A stretch of DNA of 23,260 bases from a virus. The DNA is taken from positions 1 to 23,260 of the IMG/VR virus record IMGVR_UViG_3300037150_000252; one strand, written 5' to 3'. The translations under genes and the position numbers were made by a program. Position 1 is the first letter of the stretch; each line of letters begins with the position of its first letter. This document shows positions 195 to 22,566 of this stretch, in pieces. The notes under the pieces were generated by a model, which saw nothing but the letters and a program-made list of their open reading frames with translations, was not told the origin of the DNA and did no database searches.

Positions 195-614
195 GTGAAA
201 CGCAAGCCTCTCCTATCTACCGTCGCCAAAGCACGCGCCTTCCTGGCCGCATACCGCAAAAGCGCCAACCTCACGGCCTCGGCCCGCGCGGCCGGGATCG
301 GCGTGCGCAACCACTATCGATGGATTGAGGAGTACCCCGCCTACGCCGAGGCATTCAAGCGCGCGCACCTCGTGGCGCGGCAGTTTCTCAAAGACAAGGC
401 AATCGAGTTCTCTACGGTCGGCTGGACAGAGCCCGTATTCTACCAGGGTGTTCTGTGCGGCCACGTGAAGCGGCGCGATAGCGGCCTGCACCAGATGCTG
501 TTGCGCGGCGCGTTCCCCGAAGAGTTCGGCAAAAAACTGGAAGTCACCGGCAAGGACGGCGCGGCCATCGACACACGGCTGGAAGTGGTGTTCGTCAAGG
601 CAACTGAATTGTGA
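195..614 (+). CDS. Phage HTH protein, terminase-small-subunit-like
   Basis: From GTG 195 the protein has 139 residues starting VKRKPLLSTVAKARAFL. Residues about 12-50 contain an HTH-like block (ANLTASARAAGIGVRNHYRWIEEYPAY), the pattern of phage terminase-small-like and transposase-type DNA-binding domains. The C-terminal part (LHQMLLRGAFPEEFGKK, then VTGKDG) resembles the 'LLKarrPEkyg' tail common in phage small-terminase-like proteins. The same frame is open upstream to 57, but that extension crosses the micro-gene and has unlike, low-complexity composition, so GTG 195 is preferred. A second, P27-type small terminase lies beside the large terminase at 5578, so this protein may be a DNA-binding paralogue or regulator rather than the packaging subunit. 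A perfect hairpin follows the stop. Confidence 0.75.
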   Translation: MKRKPLLSTVAKARAFLAAYRKSANLTASARAAGIGVRNHYRWIEEYPAYAEAFKRAHLVARQFLKDKAIEFSTVGWTEPVFYQGVLCGHVKRRDSGLHQMLLRGAFPEEFGKKLEVTGKDGAAIDTRLEVVFVKATEL

Positions 615-621
615 GAGCGGA

Positions 622-648
622 GCTGGAGGAGGGCGGACCTCCTCCAGC
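622..648 (+). terminator. Perfect 11-bp hairpin after the HTH gene
   Basis: Eight bases after the TGA at 612-614, GCTGGAGGAGG (622-632) pairs without mismatch with CCTCCTCCAGC (638-648) around the loop GCGGA. No T-tract follows, so it is not a canonical intrinsic terminator. It could be a 3'-end stabiliser, a Rho-assisted stop, or the 5' arm of the structured repeat starting at 670. The second repeat copy is also preceded by a weaker GGAG/CTCC stem, at about 20572-20592. Confidence 0.55.
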
Positions 649-669
649 CATCAGCAGTTTGCTCGCATC

Positions 670-824
670 CGGTTCCAGTCTTATAACGAGCAGCTTCCCA
701 ACCTGTCCGCCCAGGTTATCGGGTTGCCTCTAGGTCTGCACCAACTGGATTCGGCAGACTCACACCGCCCGGAACAACAGCTTGCGTTCAAGGTTTGGCG
801 CGGCGGGGGTGGCCCCGCAAGCCA
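670..824 (+). ncRNA. Structured repeat, copy 1 (candidate ncRNA or leader)
   Basis: This 155-nt segment recurs at 20598-20750. By hand alignment I count about 13 substitutions and one 2-nt indel, roughly 90% identity. A consistent fold is visible: GTTCC 672-676 with GGAAC 771-775 closing a multibranch; ACCTG 701-705 with CAGGT 712-716, flanked by CCC 697-699 and GGG 721-723; GTCTGC 734-739 with GCAGAC 754-759. A separate 3' hairpin has TGGC 796-799 with GCCA 821-824 and inner stem 803-808 with 813-818. It ends 10 nt before the ATG at 835. The indel would shift any reading frame through it, so it does not look coding. I do not recognise it as a named riboswitch or ncRNA class. It may be a cis leader, an independent small RNA, or a mobile non-coding element. 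Confidence 0.7.
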
Positions 825-834
825 CGACTATACC

Positions 835-1110
835 ATGAGAGCCGAGTTCCCCGAAAAGTTCGCCTTCCTGCATCCAGAAGGCGAAACCGTGGCAGCGCCC
901 TGCATTGTCGAATTGCCTCGCGTTTCCGAACCGGCAACCCTGGCCGACACCATGCGAGACCAGCTCGATTTCTTGGTCGACGTGCAAGAACGTGGGCTGG
1001 CGACCGCCGAACAAGTCAACCGTATCTGCCGAGTGATGCGGATACTCCTCGAACCATTCGAAGTAAAACGCAAGGGGGACCAGCCCCAAACCCCAGCTCG
1101 TTTTAGCTAA
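835..1110 (+). CDS. Hypothetical protein, 91 aa, downstream of the structured repeat
   Basis: ATG 835 lies 10 nt after the end of the structured repeat, and the frame runs to TAA 1108-1110. The product starts MRAEFPEKFAFLHPEG and has a probable helical C-terminal half (TMRDQLDFLVDVQERGLATAEQVNRI). Codon use is GC-rich at third positions, like nearby genes. The frame is also open upstream to 724, but that extension would read through the repeat, so 835 is chosen by analogy with the gene after the second repeat copy. No Shine-Dalgarno sequence is visible before the ATG in either case. I do not recognise a family. A 144-codon open frame lies on the opposite strand, but it runs across both gene and repeat and looks like a shadow. 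Confidence 0.55.
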   Translation: MRAEFPEKFAFLHPEGETVAAPCIVELPRVSEPATLADTMRDQLDFLVDVQERGLATAEQVNRICRVMRILLEPFEVKRKGDQPQTPARFS

Positions 1111-2447: not shown

Positions 2448-2602
2448 TGTTTTCTACAACTTACGGGGAATGCGCTTTAATCTTAAAGTGCGAGTCGCGG
2501 CACATCAAGAGTGGGGCGGGCGGCTTTACGGTGTTGCCGCCACTTAGGCCCCGGTCTTTGCGTGCCAGCCCGACTCCCGTACGCAGCGCAGCCAGGACTC
2601 AC

Positions 2603-2995
2603 ATGCCAGCAGCCCCTAGCCGTCCCTGTAGTAAGCCAGGCTGTATCAATCTCAACTGCACTGAGCACAGCGCATCCAAGTCCTACGACCAGGCCCGGCG
2701 CCGCGCTCGTCACTCGGACCCCGAGCGTGCTCCAGGCTTAGGCAGATACAACACAACGCGCTGGCGTCAGGTGCGGGAGATCGTGCTGGCGCGCGACCTG
2801 ATTTGCGTGGTGTGCCGAGAGGAAGCCGCGAACGAAGCGGATCACATCGTTGCAATCGCGCGCGGCGGCGAAGTTTGGGATCTGAGCAACCTGCAGGGCC
2901 TGTGCGCGAGCTGCCACTCCAAAAAAACTCGGCGTGAGGGCGCGACGGGGGTGGGGCCTTCGCTTCCCACTTCTCGCCGGGCATGGAGCCGATAG
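2603..2995 (+). CDS. HNH endonuclease (phage packaging-associated type)
   Basis: From ATG 2603 the product has 130 residues beginning MPAAPSRPCSKPGCINLNC, the usual start of small phage HNH proteins that sit near terminases. An AGGA lies 8 nt upstream. The core shows C68-x2-C71, His81 in EADHIVAIARGG, Asn96 in LSNLQGLC, and C101-x2-C104 followed by His105. That is the zinc-braced beta-beta-alpha metal nuclease with complete key residues. In HK97-like phages such proteins assist terminase cleavage at cos ends. Here it is separated from the terminase genes by the ParB and minus-strand cluster, so a homing or free-standing role is also possible. The frame is open back to 2447, but that part is low-complexity and overlaps the att-like core. 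Confidence 0.88.
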   Translation: MPAAPSRPCSKPGCINLNCTEHSASKSYDQARRRARHSDPERAPGLGRYNTTRWRQVREIVLARDLICVVCREEAANEADHIVAIARGGEVWDLSNLQGLCASCHSKKTRREGATGVGPSLPTSRRAWSR

Positions 2996-3032
2996 GCTCA
3001 CGCGTAGGAAAATCTGCGAAATTGGAAATTCG

Positions 3033-3617
3033 ATGAAGAAACCGGAAAAGCTCGCGCCCGTCGCCCTGCTCGCAATCGAGAAGTGGCCGATTGAGCGTGT
3101 TATCCCATACGCGCGCAACGCGCGGCAGATCGGCCAGACGGCCATCGCCAAAGTAGCCGCATCAATCAAGGAATTCGGCTGGCGTCAACCCATCGTAGTC
3201 GAGCCGGACGGCGTGATCGTGGTGGGGCACGTGCGCTTGCTGGCGGCGCAAAGCCTGAAGCTCGTGGAAGTGCCGGTGCACGTCGCGAGCGATCTGAGCA
3301 AGGCGCAGATCAAGGCGTACCGGATGATGGACAACCGCTCGCACGACGAAGCGAAGTGGGACATGCAGCTCGCCGGCCTGGAACTCGCGGACCTGAACGC
3401 GCTGAACTACGATCTCAAGCTCACCGGGTTCGACAAGCTGCAAGCGCAGGAAGCCTTCCTGAAGGACTGGGAAGAAGAGCCAAAAGCGAAGGCCGAGCCG
3501 GGCGCCGGCGGCCTGGAATTTCGCGTCATCGTGACCTGCGTGGACGAGAACCAGCAGACGGAGCTGCTCGACCGCTTCGAAGCCGAGGGGCTGAAGTGCA
3601 AGGCGCTGATCTCCTGA
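3033..3617 (+). CDS. ParB/sulfiredoxin-fold nuclease-like phage protein
   Basis: The 194-residue protein starts MKKPEKLAPVALLAIEKWPI at ATG 3033. Residues about 20-90 form a ParB N-terminal-type domain: IPYARNARQ, an alternating strand-helix region ending WRQPIVVEPDG, and the hallmark GHVRLLAA at 65-72. The block AYRMMDNRSHDEAKWDMQLA (95-114) is the conserved 'DNR..e..WD' segment of this family. The tail (about 150-194) is a short alpha/beta stretch. No HTH of a true partition ParB is visible. Phage members often sit by terminase or methyltransferase genes and may bind or cut DNA or act as CTPase-like switches. It is one base from the ABC/GNAT gene, so the two are co-translated. Bases 3315-3377 recur in a distant gene at 16000-16062. 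Confidence 0.82.
   Translation: MKKPEKLAPVALLAIEKWPIERVIPYARNARQIGQTAIAKVAASIKEFGWRQPIVVEPDGVIVVGHVRLLAAQSLKLVEVPVHVASDLSKAQIKAYRMMDNRSHDEAKWDMQLAGLELADLNALNYDLKLTGFDKLQAQEAFLKDWEEEPKAKAEPGAGGLEFRVIVTCVDENQQTELLDRFEAEGLKCKALIS
3315..3377 (+). repeat. ParB-gene segment recurring at 16000-16062
   Basis: These 63 bases code for the segment centred on NRSHDEAKWDMQLA. They match 16000-16062 at 56 of 63 positions by my count, in the same reading frame. The stretch TCGCACGACGAAGC is identical in both. It is native here, where it continues a complete ParB-like domain. Confidence 0.85.
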
Positions 3618-4978: not shown

Positions 4979-5120
4979 GGCGCGTCCACCTCCATACGGA
5001 GGATTGGGGCGCGCGCAGCGTCTTGGCTTCGCGGGTCAGGACGACCAGGCCGCTTTCGTCGCGGGCCTCGATCAGATACAGGCCGGTCACTTGGTAGCTG
5101 GTTGCGATTGAGATTTTCAT
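4962..5120 (-). CDS. Small hypothetical protein, 52 aa
   Basis: On the minus strand ATG 5120 opens 52 codons ending in TAA at 4962-4964. The product reads MKISIATSYQVTGLYLIEAR and continues DESGLVVLTREAKTL, which suggests two or three short beta strands. A perfect GGAGG sits 8 nt before the start. It overlaps the ASCH gene start by 17 nt and follows an 8-bp hairpin that separates it from the DUF932 remnant. No family is recognised. The ribosome binding site, overlap and codon use make it a probable real gene. Confidence 0.65.
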   Translation of the reverse strand: MKISIATSYQVTGLYLIEARDESGLVVLTREAKTLRAPQSSVWRWTRHAAVR

Positions 5121-5138
5121 GGTTTTGCCTCCGAAGTT

Positions 5139-5158
5139 GGGGGCGGCTGCCCGCCCCC
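5139..5158 (-). terminator. Perfect GC hairpin in the minus-strand cluster
   Basis: GGGGGCGG (5139-5146) pairs with CCGCCCCC (5151-5158) around a 4-nt loop, flanked by GAAG and CTTC. It lies between the DUF932 remnant and the 52-aa gene. Without a T-tract it is probably a partial terminator or an mRNA-stabilising processing hairpin. Being symmetric, it would form on either strand. Confidence 0.55.
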
Positions 5159-5166
5159 GCTTCGAT

Positions 5167-5424
5167 CTAGCTGGCCAGCTTGCGCATTTCCTCGGCCAGG
5201 GTCCACAGGGCTTCCGCGATGCGGGTGCGGGACTGAGACGCGGCCACGGGGAGAAAGCCCTCGCTCCGCATCTTTTCCACGACTTGAATGGTGGGAATGA
5301 ACGCGTAGCGCGCGCTCATCTTGTCCCAGGGCTGGGTGGCGAACACGGACGGGGCCGTGCGCATCAGTTGGTCGTTCGTCAGTGGGGTATTGCCGCGTGT
5401 AATACTGCTCGTTAGATTCATCAT
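5167..5424 (-). pseudogene. DUF932-family protein, internally deleted (85 aa)
   Basis: ATG 5424 (ATGATG) with GGAG about 8 nt upstream opens 85 codons. Residues about 14-68 match the N-terminal signature of the phage/plasmid DUF932 (TIGR03299-like) family: 'L..aPSVFA..PwdkmSarYaFIPTiqvve.mrseGf.pv.asQSRtRi'. Full members run a few hundred residues, continuing after SRTR into a conserved 'f.kH.iRfR' region. Here SRTRIA runs straight into AEALWTLAEEMRKLAS and stops, a sequence that looks like a family C-terminus. An in-frame internal deletion is the simplest reading. The intact start and stop, and the overlap with the next minus-strand frame, leave open a functional mini-protein. Confidence 0.7.
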
Positions 5425-5579
5425 TGGGTGTCTCCAGTGTTGAGTTTAGAGATCCAGGGCGGCTCCAACCGCTTCTGGATCTCGCTTACAAAACAATCAT
5501 AGGACGCCAGCCTGCGGAAGCCAAGGACTTTACCACCTTTGGTCTGAAGGACATCCGCTCCTCCCTTCCGATAACTCAT
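5421..5579 (-). CDS. Possible small protein, 52 aa, first of the minus-strand cluster
   Basis: Starting at ATG 5579, the frame reads MSYRKGGADVLQTKGGKVLG and then FRRLASYDCFVSEIQKRLEPPW. It ends in a TGA that overlaps the ATGA start of the DUF932 remnant, a typical coupling. Without this gene the 153 bases between the DUF932 start and the small terminase would be empty. The start overlaps the divergent small-terminase ATG on a shared CATG, and no Shine-Dalgarno precedes it. A GGGAGG inside the frame instead precedes an out-of-frame ATG with only 22 codons. Moderate-to-low support. Confidence 0.4.
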   Translation of the reverse strand: MSYRKGGADVLQTKGGKVLGFRRLASYDCFVSEIQKRLEPPWISKLNTGDTQ

Positions 5580-6114
5580 GCGCGGACGCAAACCCAAGCC
5601 CACCGAGCAGCAAATCGTCTCGGGCGACCCGCGAAAACACGGGGTGAACAAGCTGAGAGCGAAGCTCGCCGGCGAGCCGAAAGCATCGCGCGGATTGCCC
5701 GCCTGCCCGCGTCACCTGAAGGCGCGCGCACGGTATGCCTGGAATTTTTGGGCGGAGGAACTGGCGGCGATGAACCTGGACCGCAGGCCGGACGCCATGA
5801 TGCTCGAAGGGGCTTGCGTAGCTTACGAAGAGGCGATTTACGCCTACGAGATTTTGCAAAAGCAGGGGCGGCTGATCGCCAAGCGCGCGGTGGACCCGAA
5901 GACCAAAGAGATAGTGGTTTTGGATGTGAAGCGCCATCCGGCGACGGTCATCGGGCACAAGGCCTGGATACAGCTTCGCGCCTTCTGTTCCGAATTCGGA
6001 CTCTCTCCAGTGAGTCGCATTCGGCTGACTATCGACAGCGCCAAGGAAACCGAGCAGGATTTGATGGCCATGCTATCCCAGCCCCGCCAGCCGAAACAGA
6101 CGACCGTGCAGTAA
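5578..6114 (+). CDS. terS: Terminase small subunit, P27 family
   Basis: The 178-residue protein opens with MRGRKPKPTEQQIVSGDPRK, the diagnostic start of P27-family small terminases (basic 'GRkPkPt...l.Gnp.k'). It continues with a helical core that includes ARYAWNFWAEELAAMNLDRRPD and a helix pair ending KHPATV-type (residues about 115-145, RHPATVIGHKAWIQLRAFCSEFGLSPVSRIRL). The 'fGLtPaSR.Rl' motif is conserved in the family. It recognises the packaging site and feeds DNA to the large subunit. ATG 5578 has no Shine-Dalgarno; the start is fixed by the family N-terminus. A minus-strand gene lies between it and the large terminase, which is unusual for this pair. Confidence 0.93.
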   Translation: MRGRKPKPTEQQIVSGDPRKHGVNKLRAKLAGEPKASRGLPACPRHLKARARYAWNFWAEELAAMNLDRRPDAMMLEGACVAYEEAIYAYEILQKQGRLIAKRAVDPKTKEIVVLDVKRHPATVIGHKAWIQLRAFCSEFGLSPVSRIRLTIDSAKETEQDLMAMLSQPRQPKQTTVQ

Positions 6115-6116
6115 AC

Positions 6117-6162
6117 GCGCGGCGCAGGTAGTGTCTCGCATGTCGCCGAAAGTGCGCTGCGC
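6117..6162. terminator. Hairpin between convergent terS and a minus-strand gene
   Basis: GCGCGGCGCA (6117-6126) pairs with TGCGCTGCGC (6153-6162), ten pairs including one G-U, closing a 26-nt loop. It begins two bases after the terS stop and lies before the minus-strand stop at 6181, so it could serve as a bidirectional 3' end. No T-tract is present. Confidence 0.4.
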
Positions 6163-6180
6163 GGCTGATGGCCCCAGTCG

Positions 6181-6363
6181 TTAACCGGTGGCCGTGTGAG
6201 TCTTTTCTCCGGTCGCAGCCCATAAATTCTGGGAGCGCATTTCGTCGATGAACGATCCGAACGTCGGGTCTTTCACGGAGTGATCGTACAGCAGTCCGGC
6301 CTCTCGCGCATCCAATCCGGGGATGCTCGCGGCCAAAACGTAGTTGATGAACTTCTGTTTCAC
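6181..6363 (-). CDS. Small hypothetical protein, 60 aa, inverted between terS and terL
   Basis: GTG 6363 is preceded by AAAGGAG with 6-nt spacing, an excellent ribosome binding site that decides this start over a TTG at 6384. The product begins VKQKFINYVLAASIPGLDAR and continues EAGLLYDHSVKDPTFGSFIDEM. It is soluble and probably mostly helical, with no recognised family. It faces away from terL, with 38 bp between the two starts, and converges on terS. An opposite-strand small gene in a packaging operon is typical of a moron, expressed independently of the late genes. No clear promoter is seen. Confidence 0.6.
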   Translation of the reverse strand: MKQKFINYVLAASIPGLDAREAGLLYDHSVKDPTFGSFIDEMRSQNLWAATGEKTHTATG

Positions 6364-6401
6364 TGAAGCTCCTTTCGCCTCCAATCATAGCGCCAACCGA
6401 C

Positions 6402-8063
6402 GTGCCTTTCTCCCAACAGCACGCGGACGCGGCCTGCAATTTCTTCGAGTTAGTACTGAAACACTCAGCCGACGAATGGTGGGGCAAGCCGTTCGTGCTG
6501 GCCCCGTGGCAGGAGGAAGTACTCCAGCACGTCTTCGGAAACCTGGACGACGAGGGCAACCGCGTGATCGAGCAGGTGTATCTCGAAGTGCCGAAAAAAG
6601 CGGGCAAAACCGAATTCGCGGCGGGCCTGGTGCTCTGGGTTTCGCTCTGCACTTCCGCTCCCGGCTGCCAGGTGTACGGCGCCGCGGCGGCCACCCGTCA
6701 GGCGATGAACGTGTATCGCGCGGCCTGCAAAATGGTGGAGCAATCGCCCCTCCTGCAGAAACAGTTCCGCATCCTCAGAGGCACGAACAGAATCCTGAAG
6801 CGCTCGGACCCGGACAGCTTCTACGCGGCCATAGCGGCGGACGGCGATCTGGGCGACGGCGTGAACCCGGCCTTCGTAGTGGCGGATGAAGTCCACCGCT
6901 GGAAGACGCGCAAGCAGCAGGAAAACTGGGACGTGCTCTCAAAGGGTGGCATCACCCGGCGCCAGACCTTGACGGTGGCCATCACCACGGCGGGCGTGCA
7001 GAGTGAATCTCCGCTGGCATGGCGGCTGCACGAAAAGACGCGCAAGATCCAGGAAGGCATAGTTTCGGACGCGCGCTTTTTCGGCCGCCTTTACGGCGCG
7101 GAAAAAACGGACGACCCGGGCGATCCGAAAACCTGGATCAAGGCGAACCCCTCGCTGATCGAAAACGGCGGCTTCCTGCCCCTCGCGAAGATCGGCAAGG
7201 AGTACGCCTCCGCGCTTTCCGAAGGCACGCTGACCGCGTTCAAGAGATATTTTTTGAACATCTGGGACCAGCAGGAAGACCGGGCCATCGACATGGTGCA
7301 CTGGGATGCCTGCCCCACGGATTGGATTGCGGCGCCGCTGCGGTCGAAGCTGCCCGAAGACAAAGTTCGGAGACTCCCCGAGGGGCTGCTGAAGCGCTTC
7401 ATCGAAAGGCGCTGCTGGGCGGGCGTCGATCTCTCCATGACCACGGATCTATCCGCCGTGGCCTTCGTGTTTCAGATTGACGGTTATGGACCGGCGCTTG
7501 AACCCCAAGTTCATTATGAAGTCCTGCCGTTCTTCTGGATGCCCAAGGAAGCGGTAACTAAGCTTCAGTGCAAAGACGGCATGCCCTATGAGCGCTGGGT
7601 GGAAGAAGGATGGATTGAAACCTGCCCAGGAGCCTGCATCGACTACCGGGATGTCGAAGAGCGGTTGAAGTGGGGCGCGGAAATGTTCGACGTGGAGCAG
7701 TTCTGCTGGGACCCCTACAACTCGCATCAGATCTCAGTGCCGATGATCGAAGCGGGCTATCAGTGCATGGATGTGAAACAGGGGCTCGTTACGCTGCATG
7801 AGCCGACGAAGAAGATCCTGGAACTGATCGCACAGCATAGATTGCACCACGGCAACCACCCGGTGCTGCGGTTCAACGCCTCGTGTGCCTCGTTGGTGCG
7901 GAAAAACGATCTCATCATGTTCAAGAAGCCGGACAGGGAGAAGGAATCGAGCAGGATGGATGGGATCTCAGCCACCGTGGACGCATTGACAAGAGCTATT
8001 TTGTTCGAGCATCAGCCGAAGTACCGGAAGTCCATCTTTGATAGCGGGACGGTGGTTTTGTGA
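6402..8063 (+). CDS. terL: Terminase large subunit (ATPase/nuclease)
   Basis: The 553-residue motor protein starts at GTG 6402. N-terminal ATPase: Walker A VPKKAGKT (63-70) and Walker B FVVADE (158-163) with catalytic Glu163; the coupling segment LTVAITTAG follows at about 190. C-terminal RNase H-like nuclease: Asp343 in AGVDLSMTTD, Asp437 in CWDPYN, and a last acidic residue in the RMDGISATVDALTRA segment (520-530). This order and length fit the Terminase_1/HK97-type family, and all key residues are intact. It translocates DNA into the prohead through the portal encoded next. The stop overlaps the start of the small membrane gene at 8060. Confidence 0.96.
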   Translation: MPFSQQHADAACNFFELVLKHSADEWWGKPFVLAPWQEEVLQHVFGNLDDEGNRVIEQVYLEVPKKAGKTEFAAGLVLWVSLCTSAPGCQVYGAAAATRQAMNVYRAACKMVEQSPLLQKQFRILRGTNRILKRSDPDSFYAAIAADGDLGDGVNPAFVVADEVHRWKTRKQQENWDVLSKGGITRRQTLTVAITTAGVQSESPLAWRLHEKTRKIQEGIVSDARFFGRLYGAEKTDDPGDPKTWIKANPSLIENGGFLPLAKIGKEYASALSEGTLTAFKRYFLNIWDQQEDRAIDMVHWDACPTDWIAAPLRSKLPEDKVRRLPEGLLKRFIERRCWAGVDLSMTTDLSAVAFVFQIDGYGPALEPQVHYEVLPFFWMPKEAVTKLQCKDGMPYERWVEEGWIETCPGACIDYRDVEERLKWGAEMFDVEQFCWDPYNSHQISVPMIEAGYQCMDVKQGLVTLHEPTKKILELIAQHRLHHGNHPVLRFNASCASLVRKNDLIMFKKPDREKESSRMDGISATVDALTRAILFEHQPKYRKSIFDSGTVVL

Positions 8064-8272: not shown

Positions 8273-8287
8273 TTCAGGCTACACAGT

Positions 8288-8306
8288 ACGGCGACCAAAT
8301 CGCCGT
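8288..8306 (+). other. Intercistronic hairpin before the portal gene
   Basis: ACGGCGA (8288-8294) pairs perfectly with TCGCCGT (8300-8306) around CCAAA. It sits in the 143-nt spacer 8273-8415, which otherwise contains no convincing gene. Lacking a T-tract, it may be an mRNA processing or stability element. Confidence 0.4.
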
Positions 8307-8415
8307 GGTCCGCGCCGCACTCCTCGCATCGGCGTGCGACCGACAGCACACAAAGAAAATATCCGTGCATCTCCGTCGAGGCCAGCAGCTTCAGCACGAC
8401 CAAGTGTAACTCACC

Positions 8416-14846: not shown

Positions 14847-15472
14847 CCCTCAGCCAAAAGGAACTGCTCGAATTGAAGTACTGGATTCGCGCGGAACTGC
14901 TCGACGGGCCAGACGGCCTCGCCGCGCAGAAAGCGATGCAACTCCAATACGTCCGCAGCCTTGGCCTATCCGATAGCCTGGAAAGCCCGGATGCGGCGGT
15001 CCTGGAGATCGGCGCGGGGCCGTGCTGGGGCATGCTGCCCAGCTTTCGGTGGACCGGCCTTTGCGTTGCCGTCGATCCGCTGTTTGAGGCGTTCGGCCAT
15101 TTGGGCCTGCTTGAAAACGAAGAGCGCGGCGACATCCGCTACTATTCAGCGCCGTTCGAACAATGGGATACCGACCTGACTTTCGACGCGATCCTTTGCG
15201 CGAATGCTTTGGACCACGGCGAAATGGGATTCCATCTGCTGCCGAAGATCGCACGGCTGCTGAAGCCCGGCGGCAGATTCTATCTGTACGTGCACCTGAG
15301 ACCGCCCGCGCTGTTGAACCTATTACACGACCATTCACTGACGCTGGAATCGCTCGATAAACACCTGAGCTACACACACCTGGTGGAAGTGAGCCGGGAA
15401 ATCCTCGGGCGGGACGACATCGCGGACTGGAATTGTCCGACACTGATAGGCATATGGCAGAAACCGCTGTAA
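14843..15472 (+). CDS. Class I SAM-dependent methyltransferase
   Basis: From GTG 14843 (GTGA overlap with the deacetylase stop) the product has 209 residues. AAVLEIGAGPCWGML (about 52-66) is motif I, CVAVDP motif II, FDAILCANALDHGEMG motif IV and IARLLKPGGRFYLYVHLR the post-motif strand. The C-terminus (DDIADWNCPTLIGIWQKPL) is a typical closing strand. The frame is open back to 14534, but that part is a shadow of the deacetylase gene. It belongs to the coupled sugar cassette. The acceptor is unknown. Confidence 0.82.
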   Translation: MTLSQKELLELKYWIRAELLDGPDGLAAQKAMQLQYVRSLGLSDSLESPDAAVLEIGAGPCWGMLPSFRWTGLCVAVDPLFEAFGHLGLLENEERGDIRYYSAPFEQWDTDLTFDAILCANALDHGEMGFHLLPKIARLLKPGGRFYLYVHLRPPALLNLLHDHSLTLESLDKHLSYTHLVEVSREILGRDDIADWNCPTLIGIWQKPL

Positions 15473-16971
15473 GCGCCTGGGAGCATCCGGCGACATACTG
15501 GAATCACCACACGGTGCGCGAGTTGGAGCGCGATTCCATCCGCGAGTTTATGACGCGCAACCGGCACTTGCTGTGTGGCCGCGTGCTGGACTTCGGGGCG
15601 GGGAAGCCGGGAACGTGCCGGGAGCCACAGCCATATCGGCATTTAGTCGAAGGCGAATACGTGCCCTACGACAAGGGCGATGCATGGCCGCGTGGACCGT
15701 TCGATGCGGTGATGTGCAACCAGGTCTTTCAATATCTGGAAGATCCAGTATCGTGGGCGCACGCGCTGCTGATGGCCCTGAAGCCGGGCGGCCACCTGGT
15801 GATGACGTACGCGACGAACTGGGAGGAATGCGAAGCCAGTGACCTGGCCCGATTCACAAGGATCGGGATGGATCGGCTTTTGAAGTCGGTCAATTTTGAG
15901 ATCCTTGGCCACGAGCGCCGTGCCTCGATCAACCTGGGCGGCTTCCAATTTGCGCTGGGCTATGGTGTAGTGGCGCGGAGGCGATGTACGACGGTTCGCG
16001 CGTACCGGCTGATGGCCAATCGCTCGCACGACGAAGCCAAGTGGGACATGCAGCTTGCGGCCGGCGGATACACGCGCCCGAGGATCGACGAGAGCGCAGC
16101 CGTCCTTGCGGCGCGGTCAGATTGGCCGATGTACACGCGCCTGGGCATCGACGAGAGCGCAGCCTTCCTCACTGCCAAGCTGAAGTGGCAAGCGCCGTTT
16201 TTATTCCTCCGCTATGGCGATGGAGCCATAGAATGCATCAACGGCCTGGGGAAAGGGCAGACTTGCGACGGCGAGAAGTATTCCCCCGATCTGGCGCGGG
16301 GCATGCGGCAAGCCTGGGACGATGTCGTCCACTCGACCATCGGCAGCTATGTCGGCCTGGGGTTTGTTATGGATATGTCAGCGTATAATGCGGGCCAGGA
16401 CCCAAACTGCATTGGCGATTGGCGGTTCTCGGGTGCTTTCGGCGGCCCGCAAATCTACATCGGCGATTGGCTTTCGGCTTCTTTCGGTGCCAACCGGTCC
16501 ACGGAATATCGCGCGGAATACGACCGGCTGATCGGGGATGCCAATCTCAACTTTCTGCACTTCGAAGCGCTGCTTCTGACGCGCGAGTCCCGCGAGCTGC
16601 TGGATTTCTATAAGGCGGTGAAGGCGGACACGCGGCGCAAAGTCTATCTGGGACCGGCGGCGCACGCACCGGCGGCCAAGATGCTCGGCTGCGAGCACGT
16701 CGTCACGCCCATGCGGGATCTGCTGGCATGCGCGGATTCGATCTATGACAAACTGGCGGGCAATCCGTTTGATGTCCTGCTGTGGGCCGCTGGCATGGCT
16801 GGGACAATCCCGGTAGTGAAGCTCTGGGAGGCATTTCCCGGCCGCACCTACATCAATCTGGGGAGTGCCATGGACCCGTTAACGCGGAGCGCCACCGAGC
16901 CGCGCGGATACACGAGAAGCGGGCAATTAACGCACGCACAGGCAAAGGCGTTCTTCCATGAACTGCTCTGA
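15454..16971 (+). CDS. Methyltransferase / GT-D-type glycosyltransferase fusion with a ParB-derived insert
   Basis: The 505-residue protein from ATG 15454 has three parts. Residues 1-179 are a class I methyltransferase: VLDFGAGKPGT, FDAVMCNQVFQYLEDP, LKPGGHLVMTYATNW, ending GYGVVARRR as such domains usually end. Residues about 181-203 (VRAYRLMANRSHDEAKWDMQLA) are a near-copy of a segment of the ParB-like protein at 3033-3617. Two copies of a 21-residue unit starting YTR and containing IDESAA follow (206-247). From about 248 a GT-D/DUF1792-like domain begins (FLFLRYGDGAIECINGLGKG; later RKVYLGPAAHAPAAKMLG and FDVLLWAAGMAGT). It may be one bifunctional enzyme or a recombination chimera. A TTG at 15433 is an alternative start. 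It overlaps both neighbours. Confidence 0.75.
   Translation: MAETAVSAWEHPATYWNHHTVRELERDSIREFMTRNRHLLCGRVLDFGAGKPGTCREPQPYRHLVEGEYVPYDKGDAWPRGPFDAVMCNQVFQYLEDPVSWAHALLMALKPGGHLVMTYATNWEECEASDLARFTRIGMDRLLKSVNFEILGHERRASINLGGFQFALGYGVVARRRCTTVRAYRLMANRSHDEAKWDMQLAAGGYTRPRIDESAAVLAARSDWPMYTRLGIDESAAFLTAKLKWQAPFLFLRYGDGAIECINGLGKGQTCDGEKYSPDLARGMRQAWDDVVHSTIGSYVGLGFVMDMSAYNAGQDPNCIGDWRFSGAFGGPQIYIGDWLSASFGANRSTEYRAEYDRLIGDANLNFLHFEALLLTRESRELLDFYKAVKADTRRKVYLGPAAHAPAAKMLGCEHVVTPMRDLLACADSIYDKLAGNPFDVLLWAAGMAGTIPVVKLWEAFPGRTYINLGSAMDPLTRSATEPRGYTRSGQLTHAQAKAFFHELL
16000..16062 (+). repeat. In-frame copy of a ParB-gene segment
   Basis: This stretch matches 3315-3377 at 56 of 63 bases by my count, in the same reading frame and giving the same NRSHDEAKWDMQLA core. 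It lies exactly at the junction between the methyltransferase domain and the glycosyltransferase part. No complete ParB domain surrounds it, so it is a transplanted fragment. Confidence 0.82.
16069..16194 (+). repeat. Two tandem 63-nt units inside the fusion gene
   Basis: Unit 1 (16069-16131) and unit 2 (16132-16194) both start TACACGCGCC and share ATCGACGAGAGCGCAGCC. They encode YTRPRIDESAAVLAA and YTRLGIDESAAFLTA. Beyond these blocks the units have diverged, so the duplication is not new or was patched by recombination. Confidence 0.8.
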
Positions 16972-17542
16972 CATCTCGGCCGTCATCGTCACGAAAGGCG
17001 ACGTAGACCTGTCGCCAATCCTCGAATCGCTGCCCTTCGATGACATCGTGGTCTGGGACAACGCGAAAGAGCACATCGATCAGAAAGTGTACGGCCGCTA
17101 TCTGGGCATCTACCGGGCAAAACACGATTTCATCTATGTGCAGGACGACGACTGTATTGTGCCAGTGGAAGATCTGGCTACCCCATACGTTGGGAACGGA
17201 GTCCGGCGCGAGTTGTGGTGCAACGTGCAGCGGAGCCACAGCGAATTCTACCGGCCGCTCGGCTGCACTCTCGTGGGCTGGGGCGCCATCTTTCCGCGCA
17301 TCCTGGCAAATTGGGCGTTTGCGCAATATCGCTCCGTGTTCCCCGTGGATGAGCTATTTCTCCGCGAGTGCGACCGGGTCTTTACCGGGCTCACACCGTT
17401 TCACGAAGTTGACCTAGGCGTGGATCACCTGCCCCACGCGCACGGCGTGGACCGCATGGGCATGGAAAGACGTCACGGCGACGACCTGGCCGAGATCCTG
17501 CGCCGGATCGCTTCGGTGAAAGCAAGCATGGTATCTGCATGA
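16958..17542 (+). CDS. Putative GT-A-type glycosyltransferase
   Basis: The 194-residue protein starts MNCSDISAVIVTKGDVDLSP at ATG 16958, overlapping the previous gene by 14 nt. The order of an N-terminal Rossmann strand, DDIVVWDN (nucleotide-sugar side), then FIYVQDDDCIVP (DDD 63-65, metal site) and a later VGWGAIFPR / FLRECDRVFTG acceptor region fits a GT-A transferase related to GT2 or exostosin-like enzymes. It is shorter than many GT2 proteins but appears complete. There is no membrane segment. Donor and acceptor are unknown. Confidence 0.75.
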   Translation: MNCSDISAVIVTKGDVDLSPILESLPFDDIVVWDNAKEHIDQKVYGRYLGIYRAKHDFIYVQDDDCIVPVEDLATPYVGNGVRRELWCNVQRSHSEFYRPLGCTLVGWGAIFPRILANWAFAQYRSVFPVDELFLRECDRVFTGLTPFHEVDLGVDHLPHAHGVDRMGMERRHGDDLAEILRRIASVKASMVSA

Positions 17543-18351
17543 TCGACATCCTGTTCCTCACGCATAACCGGCGGAAATTTACGGAGGCAAGCTTCGAGGC
17601 GCTGATGGAAAACACAAACTTGGACCTCGTCTCCGGGCTTGTGGTTTGCGATGATAGATCGGCGGACGGAACGCATGAACTGATGGCCGATCAGACGCGT
17701 GTATTTCGGGCGAATCTGGGCAAGCCGACGGTCTTCCGGTATTCCGTTAAGTTCGCAGATCTGACCGAGGAGGAGAAAGAGAAGGAAGGCGGCCTAGGAA
17801 GCCCCGTCGCAGTGATGGCGGACTATCTGGCTAGCCCCGGCGCGCAGTTTTGGGCCAAGATCGACTCGGATGTAATCGTCCCGCCCGGTTGGCTCGATCA
17901 ATGCGCGGCCACGTTCGAATCGCACCCGGAATTGGATCTGCTGGGCATCGAACCCCCCGATAGCCGCTGTCCGCACTTTACCCAGTCGTATCGTCCGGAT
18001 GCCACCCGCGATCTGGAGATGGCGGACGGGCCACCTTCCTACGTCCCCGTGTCGACCATCGGCGGGATCGGCGTGTTTCGCCGGCGCGCCTTCGAACGAC
18101 GGCCCCTGACGCCGCACGGCAAATACGGCGGGTTCGAAGCGTGGCAAAGAGCGCATCCGCAAGTCGTGCGGGGGCAGATTCGGCCAGCATTAGATTTGTT
18201 CCTGTTGGACCGGCTGCCAGTGGAACCATGGGCATCGCTGAGCGCGGACTACATAGCGAAGGGATGGCAGAGACCATGGCGCACGTATAGCGCTGGATTC
18301 AGTCATCTGTGGCAGTGGTGGTTGAAAGAGAGCACATGTTTCGTATCGTAA
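17539..18351 (+). CDS. Glycosyltransferase, family 2
   Basis: The 270-residue protein starts at ATG 17539 with an ATGA overlap. It has the GT2 plan: IDILFLTHNRRKFTEASFEAL, then VVCDDRSADGTHEL, and the DXD site AKIDSDVIVPPGW (DSD 109-111). The acceptor-side region VPVSTIGGIGVFRRRAF matches the 'g....g..~fRr..f' motif that positions the acceptor in this family. A tryptophan-rich C-terminus (FSHLWQWWLKES) may touch membrane or protein acceptors. It is the last enzyme of the cassette; the small gene at 18336 overlaps its end by 16 nt. Confidence 0.86.
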   Translation: MIDILFLTHNRRKFTEASFEALMENTNLDLVSGLVVCDDRSADGTHELMADQTRVFRANLGKPTVFRYSVKFADLTEEEKEKEGGLGSPVAVMADYLASPGAQFWAKIDSDVIVPPGWLDQCAATFESHPELDLLGIEPPDSRCPHFTQSYRPDATRDLEMADGPPSYVPVSTIGGIGVFRRRAFERRPLTPHGKYGGFEAWQRAHPQVVRGQIRPALDLFLLDRLPVEPWASLSADYIAKGWQRPWRTYSAGFSHLWQWWLKESTCFVS

Positions 18352-19568: not shown

Positions 19569-20567
19569 ATGTCAACAAGTCTCTGCGCACTCCAGGATGT
19601 AAAGACGTGGCTCGCTATGGGCGCGGCTGCATCGAGCGACGACAGCCTCATCACGGGACTGATTGTAAATGTTTCCACCGACTTCCTGAATGAGATCCGG
19701 CGGCCGGATTTCACCCCGGCTCAGAATTACAACGAAGTGCGGGAAGGCGACGGCGGCGATTTGATGGTGCTGAGGCACTGGCCCATCAATTCCATTGTGA
19801 ACCTTTCGCAGATCGGGGCTGGTGGCTCGCCTCCGCTCACCGGGTCATCGATTGACCAGGCCAGCGAGACCTATACGCTGGGGCAATTCCAGACGGATCC
19901 TCCGCAGTACAGTTTCACTGTCTCCAATGCCGCAACGTTCATGTACGATGGGCCGCCCGGCCCCGAGAATTCCCTGCCCGCCGTGGTCTCGGTATCGACC
20001 GGCTTGCCCTTCGCTTACATTTCGCAGGGGCCTCTTCAGCAGAGTCAATACAGTGTCAATCCTTCAACTGGCACCTACACATTCTCGGCTGCGGACGTAG
20101 CCGCGAAAACGCAGGTGGTCATCAGCTACACCTGGTTCAACCTGGGAGGCCTGAGTGCCATCCCGGAATCCGCCAACGACGTGGCACCGGGCTGGTGGAT
20201 CGATTCGGATGTGGATCCGGAGCGCCGGTACGAACTGTATCTCGACGGAAAGGTCTTCATTTTCGTCGACGAACGGGAATACTCCATTACCTACAACGCG
20301 GGATATGCAGCCGTTCCTCCCGATGCGGCACAGGCCGTAATCGAGTGGACGGCACAGCGCTACAAGTCTCGGATGAGCATCGGACAGACCAACATCCACC
20401 AGGTGACTGGCGAAACGGTGACCACACCCGAAAGCGAGATTCCGTTGTCGGTCAAGAGGGTAATCGAACGGTACCGACGGTATGATCCGCTACAAACGCC
20501 TCCGGAGCGAGTGGCCTTGCTCGATATGAGCAAGAAACTGGATTTGGCTAAGGCGCGGAAGCGGTAA
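19569..20567 (+). CDS. Second gp6-like connector protein with inserted beta domain
   Basis: The 332-residue protein opens with LCALQDVKTWLAMGAAASSDDSLI and ends with EYSITYNAGYAAVPPDAAQAVIEWTAQRYKSR, the start and close of a gp6-like connector. These two halves are separated by about 130 residues. The insertion (about 110-195) contains FTVSNAATFMYDG, LPFAYISQGPLQQSQYSV and GTYTFSAADVAAKTQVVISYTW. A related segment is found in the tail tube protein at 21796-22566. Two adjacent gp6-like proteins could be an adaptor and a stopper, or this one may carry an exposed decoration. A structured repeat follows the stop instead of the tight spacing seen elsewhere. Confidence 0.72.
   Translation: MSTSLCALQDVKTWLAMGAAASSDDSLITGLIVNVSTDFLNEIRRPDFTPAQNYNEVREGDGGDLMVLRHWPINSIVNLSQIGAGGSPPLTGSSIDQASETYTLGQFQTDPPQYSFTVSNAATFMYDGPPGPENSLPAVVSVSTGLPFAYISQGPLQQSQYSVNPSTGTYTFSAADVAAKTQVVISYTWFNLGGLSAIPESANDVAPGWWIDSDVDPERRYELYLDGKVFIFVDEREYSITYNAGYAAVPPDAAQAVIEWTAQRYKSRMSIGQTNIHQVTGETVTTPESEIPLSVKRVIERYRRYDPLQTPPERVALLDMSKKLDLAKARKR
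20076..20135 (+). repeat. Coding segment shared with the tail tube gene
   Basis: These 60 bases match 22261-22320 at 50 positions by my count. The first 22 and last 15 bases are identical, and both copies encode YTFSAAD-x-AAKTQ then ISYTW. Protein similarity extends upstream (NAA, then 'QYS'), so a whole beta segment is shared. Confidence 0.8.
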
Positions 20568-20597
20568 ACCGAAGGAGCGGCGGCCCACCTCCGGCTA

Positions 20598-20750
20598 CGG
20601 TTCCAGTCTTATAACGAGCAGCTTCCCAACCTGTCCGCCCAGGTCATCGGGTCGCCTAGGTCTGCACCAACTGGATTCGGCAGACTCACACCGTCCGGAA
20701 CAACAGTTCGTTTTCAATGTTTGGCGCGGCGGGATGGCTCCCGCAAGCCA
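20598..20750 (+). ncRNA. Structured repeat, copy 2 (candidate ncRNA or leader)
   Basis: This 153-nt segment is the second copy of the element at 670-824. All main helices are kept: GTTCC 20600-20604 with GGAAC 20697-20701, the ACCTG/CAGGT hairpin, GTCTGC/GCAGAC, and the 3' hairpin (TGGC 20722-20725 with GCCA 20747-20750). In that hairpin the closing pair A20734-T20739 replaces G808-C813 of copy 1, a compensatory change. The tetraloop differs completely between copies (TGGC here, GTGG there). It ends 11 nt before ATG 20762. The position right before a start codon, without a Shine-Dalgarno, is the same in both copies. Confidence 0.7.
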
Positions 20751-20761
20751 TAAGAATAAGT

Positions 20762-21250
20762 ATGGTCCTCTTTACCCTCGATAAGACCTCCGTCGATTCC
20801 ACCGTCTCCTACATCGATCATCTCCAGGAACGCATCCTGGTGGGCGTCCGGGTGGGAATGAAGGACGGGGTCAAAGGGCTGGCACAAGCCGAAGTGGAAG
20901 CGGCAGCGGCGCATCCATCGGACCCTCGGAGCAAGCCCAACGACATGCTTGCCAACATCCTGGGCAGATCGGGAAGAGTGATCGAAACGGACGACGATAT
21001 CAATGCCATCTACAAGCCCAGGAACGCAGGCAAGCAAGCCCATTACTGGCTGGAATATGGCTATCACGTGCCCGCCGTCGGGAGCACAATTATGAACATG
21101 ATCGTGGGCATGCGCGCCCCTGGCGTGTATCGGGCGCACAAAGAATTCTCCGTACCTGCCCGGCCCTTTTTCTTCAGTATTGGCGAGGGATACCAGGGGC
21201 AGTTCTTCGAGAAGATTCAGGCGCGCGTTCGGGAGGCCATGAGTGCCTAG
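20762..21250 (+). CDS. HK97 gp10-like head-tail / tail-completion protein
   Basis: The 162-residue protein starts at ATG 20762, just after the structured repeat. An N-terminal helix (TVSYIDHLQERILVGVRVGMKDGVKGLAQ) is followed by AHYWLEYGYHVPAV, then a beta segment and VPARPFFFSIGEGYQGQFFEKIQARVREAM. 'vpArPFl...' followed by a terminal helix is the usual end of gp10/neck proteins, which seal the head-tail joint. Identification rests on that pattern and on position between connectors and tail terminator. The frame is open upstream to 20717, but that would read through the hairpin. Confidence 0.65.
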   Translation: MVLFTLDKTSVDSTVSYIDHLQERILVGVRVGMKDGVKGLAQAEVEAAAAHPSDPRSKPNDMLANILGRSGRVIETDDDINAIYKPRNAGKQAHYWLEYGYHVPAVGSTIMNMIVGMRAPGVYRAHKEFSVPARPFFFSIGEGYQGQFFEKIQARVREAMSA

Positions 21251-21795: not shown

Positions 21796-22566
21796 GTGCC
21801 CAATTATCAGTTCGGCAGCGGCGTTCTCGTGGCAGTTCCGAACGCCGGAAACCTCGCAGCCAATCCCACGCCCTATATGGTCGGCACCCTTCAGGAGTGC
21901 AACATCAACGTCAAAGGCGACATCAAGAAACTCTGGGGCCAACAGCAAATGGCCGTTGCCAAAGCGCGCGGCAAAATCGATGTGACATGCAAAGGCAAGT
22001 TTGCCACCCAGGACCCCACCATGCTGAATCAGCTCTACTGGGGACAGACCCAGACCACCGGCATGCAGATCTTGGCAGCCAACGAAGCCTGGACCATCGG
22101 CGGCGGATCGCCTCCCGCGGCCACCGTCACAGTCACTAACGCAGCGAATGCCACCACCGATTTTGGTGTCCTGAATGCGGCTACCGGGCAGCAGTTTCAA
22201 AAGGTCCCAGGCACGCCCGCTATCGGCCAGTATTCCGCGCCCACCCCGTTTCTGGGCGTATACACATTCTCGGCTGCGGACGAAGCGGCCAAGACCCAGA
22301 TCTATATCAGCTACACCTGGCTGAATGCCGCCCGCGGCACCACCGTCGCTCTGGTGAACCAGTTCATGGGCTACGCGCCGGAATTCCAGGCGTTCCTGTT
22401 CAACTCGTTTCAAAGCCAGATCATGGGCATTCAACTGAATTCATGCATGATGGGCACGTTCTCCATCCCCACCAAGCAAGAAGACTTTTGGATTTCCGAT
22501 CTGGAATTCGATGCCTCTTGCGATGCGGCTGGCGTGCTCGGTTACATGTACGCGGACCTCGGTTAA
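21796..22566 (+). CDS. Tail tube (major tail) protein
   Basis: The 256-residue protein starts at GTG 21796 with AAGGAG about 10 nt upstream, after a 61-nt spacer. The N-terminal QFGSGVLVAVPNAGNLAANPTPYMVGTLQECNI is typical of tube proteins ('G.g.....~g..~P.~iG.l..v.'). KGDIKKLWGQQQMAVAKARGKIDVTCKGKFA forms the tube beta-barrel segment and loop. A beta insertion (about 120-180) holds VYTFSAADEAAKTQIYISYTW, shared with the connector at 19569. The C-terminus (FSIPTKQEDFWISDLEFDASCDAAG) returns to the tube fold. Position before the G/GT chaperone is canonical. Confidence 0.85.
   Translation: MPNYQFGSGVLVAVPNAGNLAANPTPYMVGTLQECNINVKGDIKKLWGQQQMAVAKARGKIDVTCKGKFATQDPTMLNQLYWGQTQTTGMQILAANEAWTIGGGSPPAATVTVTNAANATTDFGVLNAATGQQFQKVPGTPAIGQYSAPTPFLGVYTFSAADEAAKTQIYISYTWLNAARGTTVALVNQFMGYAPEFQAFLFNSFQSQIMGIQLNSCMMGTFSIPTKQEDFWISDLEFDASCDAAGVLGYMYADLG
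22261..22320 (+). repeat. Coding segment shared with the connector gene
   Basis: This is the partner of 20076-20135. The bases TACACATTCTCGGCTGCGGA and the following CG are identical in both genes, as is ATCAGCTACACCTGG at the end. It codes for the last strands of the shared beta insertion. Confidence 0.8.

Follow-up and report, generated by a model that had tools for sequence, protein, structure and literature searches.

A candidate structured RNA element common to otherwise dissimilar phages

A 23,260-base IMG/VR virus record, analyzed at its full length and called the window here, carries two nearly identical stretches of about 155 nt, at positions 670-824 (copy 1) and 20598-20750 (copy 2). 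What is this sequence, why is it present twice, and does it act as RNA or spread as DNA? The initial annotation had read it as a structured non-coding element matching no named RNA class, and had proposed a phage leader RNA, an independent small RNA, or a mobile non-coding element.

RESULTS

Extent and coding status of the element

A repeat search of the window recovered the pair, which is its longest direct repeat, as two segments, 670-729 against 20598-20657 (97% identical) and 730-824 against 20656-20750 (88% identical), offset by a 2-nt indel; BLASTN aligned the two copies at 92% identity over 155 nt (E = 1.4e-58), in agreement with the near-identity first described. The bounds first assigned proved too short, as GC-rich 5' hairpins at 622-648 and 20569-20594 are also part of the element, which is a discrete module of ~155-215 nt. 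All features given below lie on the plus strand. In copy 1, the 5' hairpin (GCUGGAGGAGG-GCGGA-CCUCCUCCAGC, 622-648; minimum free energy of the isolated hairpin, -24.3 kcal/mol) is followed by a core at 669-780 that scores 140.1 bits with covariance model R1 and comprises a closing helix (GUUCC at 672-676 with GGAAC at 771-775), hairpin S1 (688-730, 14 pairs), and hairpin S2 (733-760, with the invariant loop ACCAACUGGAUUCG), and then by a 3' hairpin at 796-824. Copy 2 has a weak 5' hairpin at 20569-20594 (-9.3 kcal/mol), placed by alignment and folding, a core at 20597-20706 (128.5 bits with R1), and a 3' hairpin at 20722-20750, placed by folding. A third candidate copy at 8283-8321 (15.1 bits with R1) was rejected, being a single hairpin only.

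An open frame (601-1110) spans copy 1, as might be expected if the element were decayed or cryptic coding sequence, a reading to which we give almost no credence. The frame has no start codon before 724 and is interrupted by the 2-nt indel of copy 2 and by another length change in the divergent homologue L012 (see below), the sequence changes compensate base pairs, and Pfam, PHROG, and tblastn gave no match of note, no family matching the frame through copy 1. With the frame broken and no such match, the coding reading was rejected, and the description of the element as non-coding stands. Rfam 15 returned zero families at gathering score in the whole window and, with the E cutoff relaxed to 5 or 10, nothing beyond chance matches that fell well short of the gathering scores; the small ribozyme, Acido-Lenti-1, HEARO, and intron covariance models gave no match, so the element is still unmatched to any named RNA class. 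ARAGORN found no tRNA or tmRNA in the window, and neither a sigma-70-type promoter nor a U-tract terminator was found on the element strand near either copy.

Occurrence in three phages

Exact 18- and 20-mers of the element matched 14 to 15 IMG/VR stretches, and three looser patterns led to essentially the same loci, the five patterns together giving essentially the same 15. Besides the window, 14 IMG/VR contigs contain the element, L012 among them, and the loci come from seven data sets (3300047539, 3300050192, 3300050821, 3300037366, 3300036903, 3300050129, and 3300050017). The homologues form three groups: a copy 1 type carried by phage X, a copy 2 type carried by phage Y, which makes up the main part of the window, and L012, from phage Z, which is 75% identical over 102 nt (E = 8e-16 in a search of its own record). 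By BLASTN and ORF-level tblastn, the element is essentially the sole similarity among X, Y, and Z, the exception for X and Y being 70 identical bases of a second element (element 2, below). As judged by these comparisons, it is present in three phage lineages with essentially no other detectable similarity, and because the three are otherwise dissimilar, we infer that it has moved between lineages. What had been suggested as a mobile non-coding element is thus supported in the sense of horizontal movement, the element being common to three dissimilar phages and empty sites existing. A scan of 288 kb of loci with model R1 recovered the known copies alone, and the records scanned with it yielded no additional ones. 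INPHARED and PLSDB, queried with the element, its L012 version, and element 2, gave no convincing match; one hit from these searches (H1, 29 nt at E = 0.5) was taken as chance, as was the lone GTDB genome match to the pattern ACTGGATTCGNNNNNCTCACACC, in Nocardia (L018), where the flanks differ.

That the element occurs twice in one phage genome, as initially annotated, is doubtful. Bases 1 to ~870 of the window are a fragment of phage X fused to phage Y; the remainder is phage Y, with integrase, HNH, portal, protease, and capsid genes and its own terS (5578) and terL (6402), and the two copies probably come one from each of two phages. The phage X terL start (835-866) is identical to the intact terL start in L015 and L058, and only its first codons are in the window, the remainder being absent. 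It breaks off after codon 12, the same breakpoint at which L009 has a different continuation, and the sequence after this codon differs among L004, L009, the window with L017, and the element 2 group, the five X contigs that have an element 2 insertion at this point. A 56-kb contig (G008) is 99.5-100% identical to the window and lacks 2797-2997 and 5074-5375; these gaps are clean 200- and 300-base deletions, and L009 has further ones. From these sequences, a biological mosaic, an integrated phage, and an assembly chimera are indistinguishable at the X/Y junction. Copy 2 is not affected by this ambiguity, since contigs of four other samples contain it. The cut in phage X terL (window 835-870) and a tyrosine integrase gene downstream of it (1308-2402) are about 440 bases apart; the terL start might be the phage Y attachment site, or the contig might be chimeric.

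Filled and empty alleles at the terS/terL junction of phage X

In phage X, terS and terL are separated by the element. The terS ORF (57-614 from the first start codon, the true start probably lying further in; PHROG 4044, terminase small subunit, E = 2.7e-18) has its stop codon at 612-614, and the old GTG start is at 611-613; in the insert-free terL relatives L059 to L064, the stop codon of terS shares bases with the GTG that starts terL. The empty junction in L060 to L062 reads ...GAAGC/GTGAGAGCCGAGTTCCCC and the filled junction ...GTGAGAGCGGAG/element/ATGAGAGCCGAGTTCCCC; on this alignment of alleles, phage X has the element as an insertion that its close relatives lack. Copy 1 is flanked by an 11-nt imperfect duplication, TGAGAGCsGAG, whose upstream copy, a copy of the terL start (TGAGAGCGGAG, 612-622), is identical to 836-846 at 10 of 11 positions (chance fraction in shuffles, 0.001) and is single in the empty alleles L059 to L062. 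No direct repeat was found around copy 2 (fraction, 0.61), and terminal inverted repeats were no better than in shuffles for either copy. The terL of L070 resembles that of L059 except at the start, and its terL-side repeat differs from the L059 empty allele (GTGAGCGCC); simple copying from the local allele therefore does not account for the downstream repeat.

GAG codons flank the insertion, and translational bypassing was considered and discarded, as the downstream ATG makes it unnecessary. No Shine-Dalgarno site precedes ATG 835 or 20762, which is also true of many other genes in the window. The old terL GTG start opens a 40-codon frame (window 611-733) that overlaps the terS stop codon and extends across the 5' half of copy 1; a ribosome coming off terS could move on into the element.

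Across nine filled phage X contigs, mean divergence is 5.0% in terS versus 0.33% in the element, and nt 36-890 of terL are also nearly uniform, save for an indel in L070. Since the element and the first ~890 nt of terL are near-identical across divergent terS genes, this block appears to have recombined into several terS backgrounds. Selection on the element was dropped as an explanation of its 15-fold lower divergence, which is not proof of such selection because the adjacent terL is equally uniform. In L043 and L058 (contig G005, 17616-17791), the 3' hairpin of the element is replaced by GGCGGCTTTACGGGGCCACTTGGCCCC, which resembles the element 2 hairpin, a possible module exchange; in L047 (G008), a 277-bp duplication (16133-16409 and 17458-17734, 94%) lies upstream of phage X terS, and the arrangement varies among contigs.

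Element 2 (GGGGCGGGCGGCUUUACGG...; window 2513-2582) is a second shared non-coding element of a separate family, a 70-nt stretch that is 100% identical in five phage X contigs at the terL start and extends to a 101-nt identical match in G007 and G008. In phage Y the identical 70 nt precede an HNH gene, and in phage X they lie between two copies of the terL start (L015, 701-770). A diverged, longer element 2 is found at the terS/terL junction of L065 (about 2880-3000), where terL is 70% identical.

Sites in phages Y and Z

A head-tail connector gene (Pfam Phage_connect_1; stop codon at 20565-20567) and an unassigned ORF at 20762 flank the element in phage Y; in phage Z its neighbors are a lysin-like gene on one side and a convergent gene on the other. 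At all three loci it is in sense orientation and begins soon 3' of a gene's stop codon, the distance to the 5' hairpin, read from the sequences, being 7 nt in X, 1 nt in Y, and about 40 nt in Z. A position upstream of a same-strand gene holds for X and Y and not for Z. The proposed leader RNA therefore fits in part: copies 1 and 2 precede an ATG, but the phage Z copy is followed by a convergent gene and can have no downstream gene under its control. Empty sites were not found for copy 2 or the phage Z copy, searches with the gp10-like protein (Y) and the lysin-like protein (Z) returning only the same phages. A coding segment (TYTFSAAD..AKTQ..ISYTW) is repeated at 82% identity between the connector and a later structural protein of the window (20076-20140 and 22261-22325).

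Fold and covariation

The GUUCC/GGAAC closing helix enclosing S1 and S2 is present in the predicted fold of copy 1, copy 2, and L012, the closing-helix fold of L012 lying 0.7 kcal/mol above the optimum. The plan first proposed, with a closing helix around two hairpins and a separate 3' hairpin, recurs in both copies, and its core also in the divergent L012; all three begin with a 5' hairpin of the GGAGG..CCUCC type. Pair counts were taken on a sequence-only MAFFT alignment (A2). Among its three distinct core sequences, 98.8% of cells pair in the core fold and six core pairs have both members changed: S1 has two of these in its CCC/GGG part and three at its tip, and S2 has one. The five double changes of S1 are found in L012, where CCC/GGG becomes AGC/GCU and the tip CCUG/CAGG becomes CGGA/UCCG; S2 changes there from GUCUGC/GCAGAC to GCCUGC/GCAGGC. 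Neither six double-change pairs nor 98.8% paired cells was attained in any of 500 shuffles (0/500), and control structures slid by 1 to 3 columns reached a maximum of 2 double-change pairs and 47.6% paired. The closing helix is invariant in all three sequences, so that covariation speaks neither for nor against it, and in copy 2 one S1 pair is broken and part of the S1 base is missing through the indel. The 3' hairpin has GCGGGG/CCCCGC in copy 1 versus GCGGGA/UCCCGC in copy 2, which is compensatory by inspection. In this alignment of three distinct sequences only, the core is a three-way junction backed by compensatory changes, and the element is structured, as had been claimed.

Folding energy of the full copies is a poor test, with z values of -3.06 (copy 1), +0.15 (copy 2), and -1.04 (L012) that are remarkable in copy 1 alone; structural support rests on covariation. 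Watson-Crick covariation fits structured single-stranded DNA as well as RNA. The junction and loop bases CGGUUCCAGUCUU, ACGAGCAGC, ACCAACUGGAUUCG, and UCACACC are invariant and the stem tips vary, which, among the sequences aligned, is the usual pattern of functional RNAs. The 5' block CCGGUUCCAGUC and the S2 loop, each invariant, are complementary to one another (-14.2 kcal/mol; shuffle P = 0.002); their predicted pairing may represent either a pseudoknot or an alternative pairing and, with neither strand varying, is without covariation support.

DISCUSSION

We tentatively read the element as an undescribed structured RNA element of phage late transcripts, probably cis-acting and horizontally spread, and would put the probability of this reading at roughly 45%; the evidence base is thin, with three distinct core sequences. 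Its sense orientation shortly after a stop codon at all three loci suggests that it is transcribed within a late polycistronic mRNA, where, as a structure between cistrons, it would act in cis. In place of the overlapping terS/terL start, with its presumed translational coupling, phage X has the element and a fresh ATG. The most likely effect would be to uncouple and re-set the expression of the flanking genes through mRNA processing, stability, or translation. Spread would have occurred mainly via recombination of flanking phage DNA, and not by an enzyme of the element's own.

In the main rival reading, the element would be mobile DNA of the non-autonomous, MITE/PATE-like kind: a transposase from elsewhere would read its hairpins as DNA, and any RNA role would be incidental. 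The presence/absence polymorphism at terS/terL, the imperfect 11-nt direct repeat around copy 1, the hairpins close to both ends, and the three unrelated contexts all favor it; we nevertheless regard it as rather unlikely, since both copies lack terminal inverted repeats and copy 2 lacks a direct repeat, Y1 transposase (PF01797) and reverse transcriptase are absent from 11 phage records, and the L070 repeat beside terL differs from what plain copying of the local target would give. Moreover, a hairpin for a transposase would not need as many invariant unpaired nucleotides as the junction and S2 loop have, and orientation is sense at 3/3 loci. The highly conserved unpaired core, the compact size, and a presence independent of the identity of the neighboring gene would suit a phage small RNA acting in trans, for example against host defense or in regulating host or phage mRNA, and processed from late mRNA. 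With neither promoter nor terminator of the kinds sought on its strand, and with no target or partner protein for the candidate, this reading of the sequences seems a good deal less likely still.

Mosaic breakpoints at or near the element, the terL start that continues differently in four groups after codon 12, and the sweep of element and terL as one block would be accounted for if the element were a recombination linker, a conserved boundary kept for module swapping at gene junctions; the compensatory base pairs and invariant loops would be left unexplained, and we think this improbable. Much the same low weight goes to a selfish small structured RNA, mobile between unrelated phages, that would insert at gene junctions and carry or re-create the interrupted gene start, possibly via an RNA intermediate and enzymes supplied in trans; movement as RNA, if it occurs, would make the element a phage parasite of a new kind. 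The position of copy 1 between terS and terL brings to mind a terminase-bound packaging or replication site (pac/cos-like), for which we see only a very slight chance: copy 2 is about 14 kb from the phage Y terminase genes (5578-8063), the phage Z copy is beside a lysin-like gene, and close relatives of X package without the element.

HEARO and the omega RNAs of IscB/TnpB elements are structured RNAs that travel with a mobile element and have hairpin ends. The element is like them in being a structured RNA candidate, hairpin-ended and apparently mobile, and differs in having no Rfam match and no Y1 transposase, searched as PF01797, in the 11 records. Small phage introns of groups I and II are structured RNA inserts in phage genes (PMC11878797, PMC12350094); unlike them, the element has no intron model match or reverse transcriptase, although a source outside these contigs is possible, and it lies between genes, with the downstream start supplied anew. 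GOLLD and ROOL (PMC12286853) are likewise structured non-coding RNAs of phages and prophages with no function assigned, but many GOLLD exceed 800 nt and they are often near tRNA islands, whereas the element is about 155-215 nt, matches no Rfam family, and is in a window without tRNA. The closest likeness in general kind is to the candidate structured phage RNAs from comparative genomics (PMC2864571, PMC8040213), which are also short, intergenic, of conserved secondary structure and no known function, and from metagenomic phage DNA; the element differs in its empty sites and transfer between unrelated phages, and it has no match in Rfam 15. Few structured RNAs are common to unrelated phages, and a role has been assigned to only a minority of them. 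In the present case, natural alleles are directly comparable for late gene expression, since there are empty sites, several terS backgrounds that carry filled sites, and a second element that takes the same place at terS/terL.

A further repeat of the window is a 59-nt piece of a ParB-like gene (3315-3373 and 16000-16058, 92%), repeated inside the ORF at 15433-16971, where it lies at the join of a methyltransferase part and an unrelated part.
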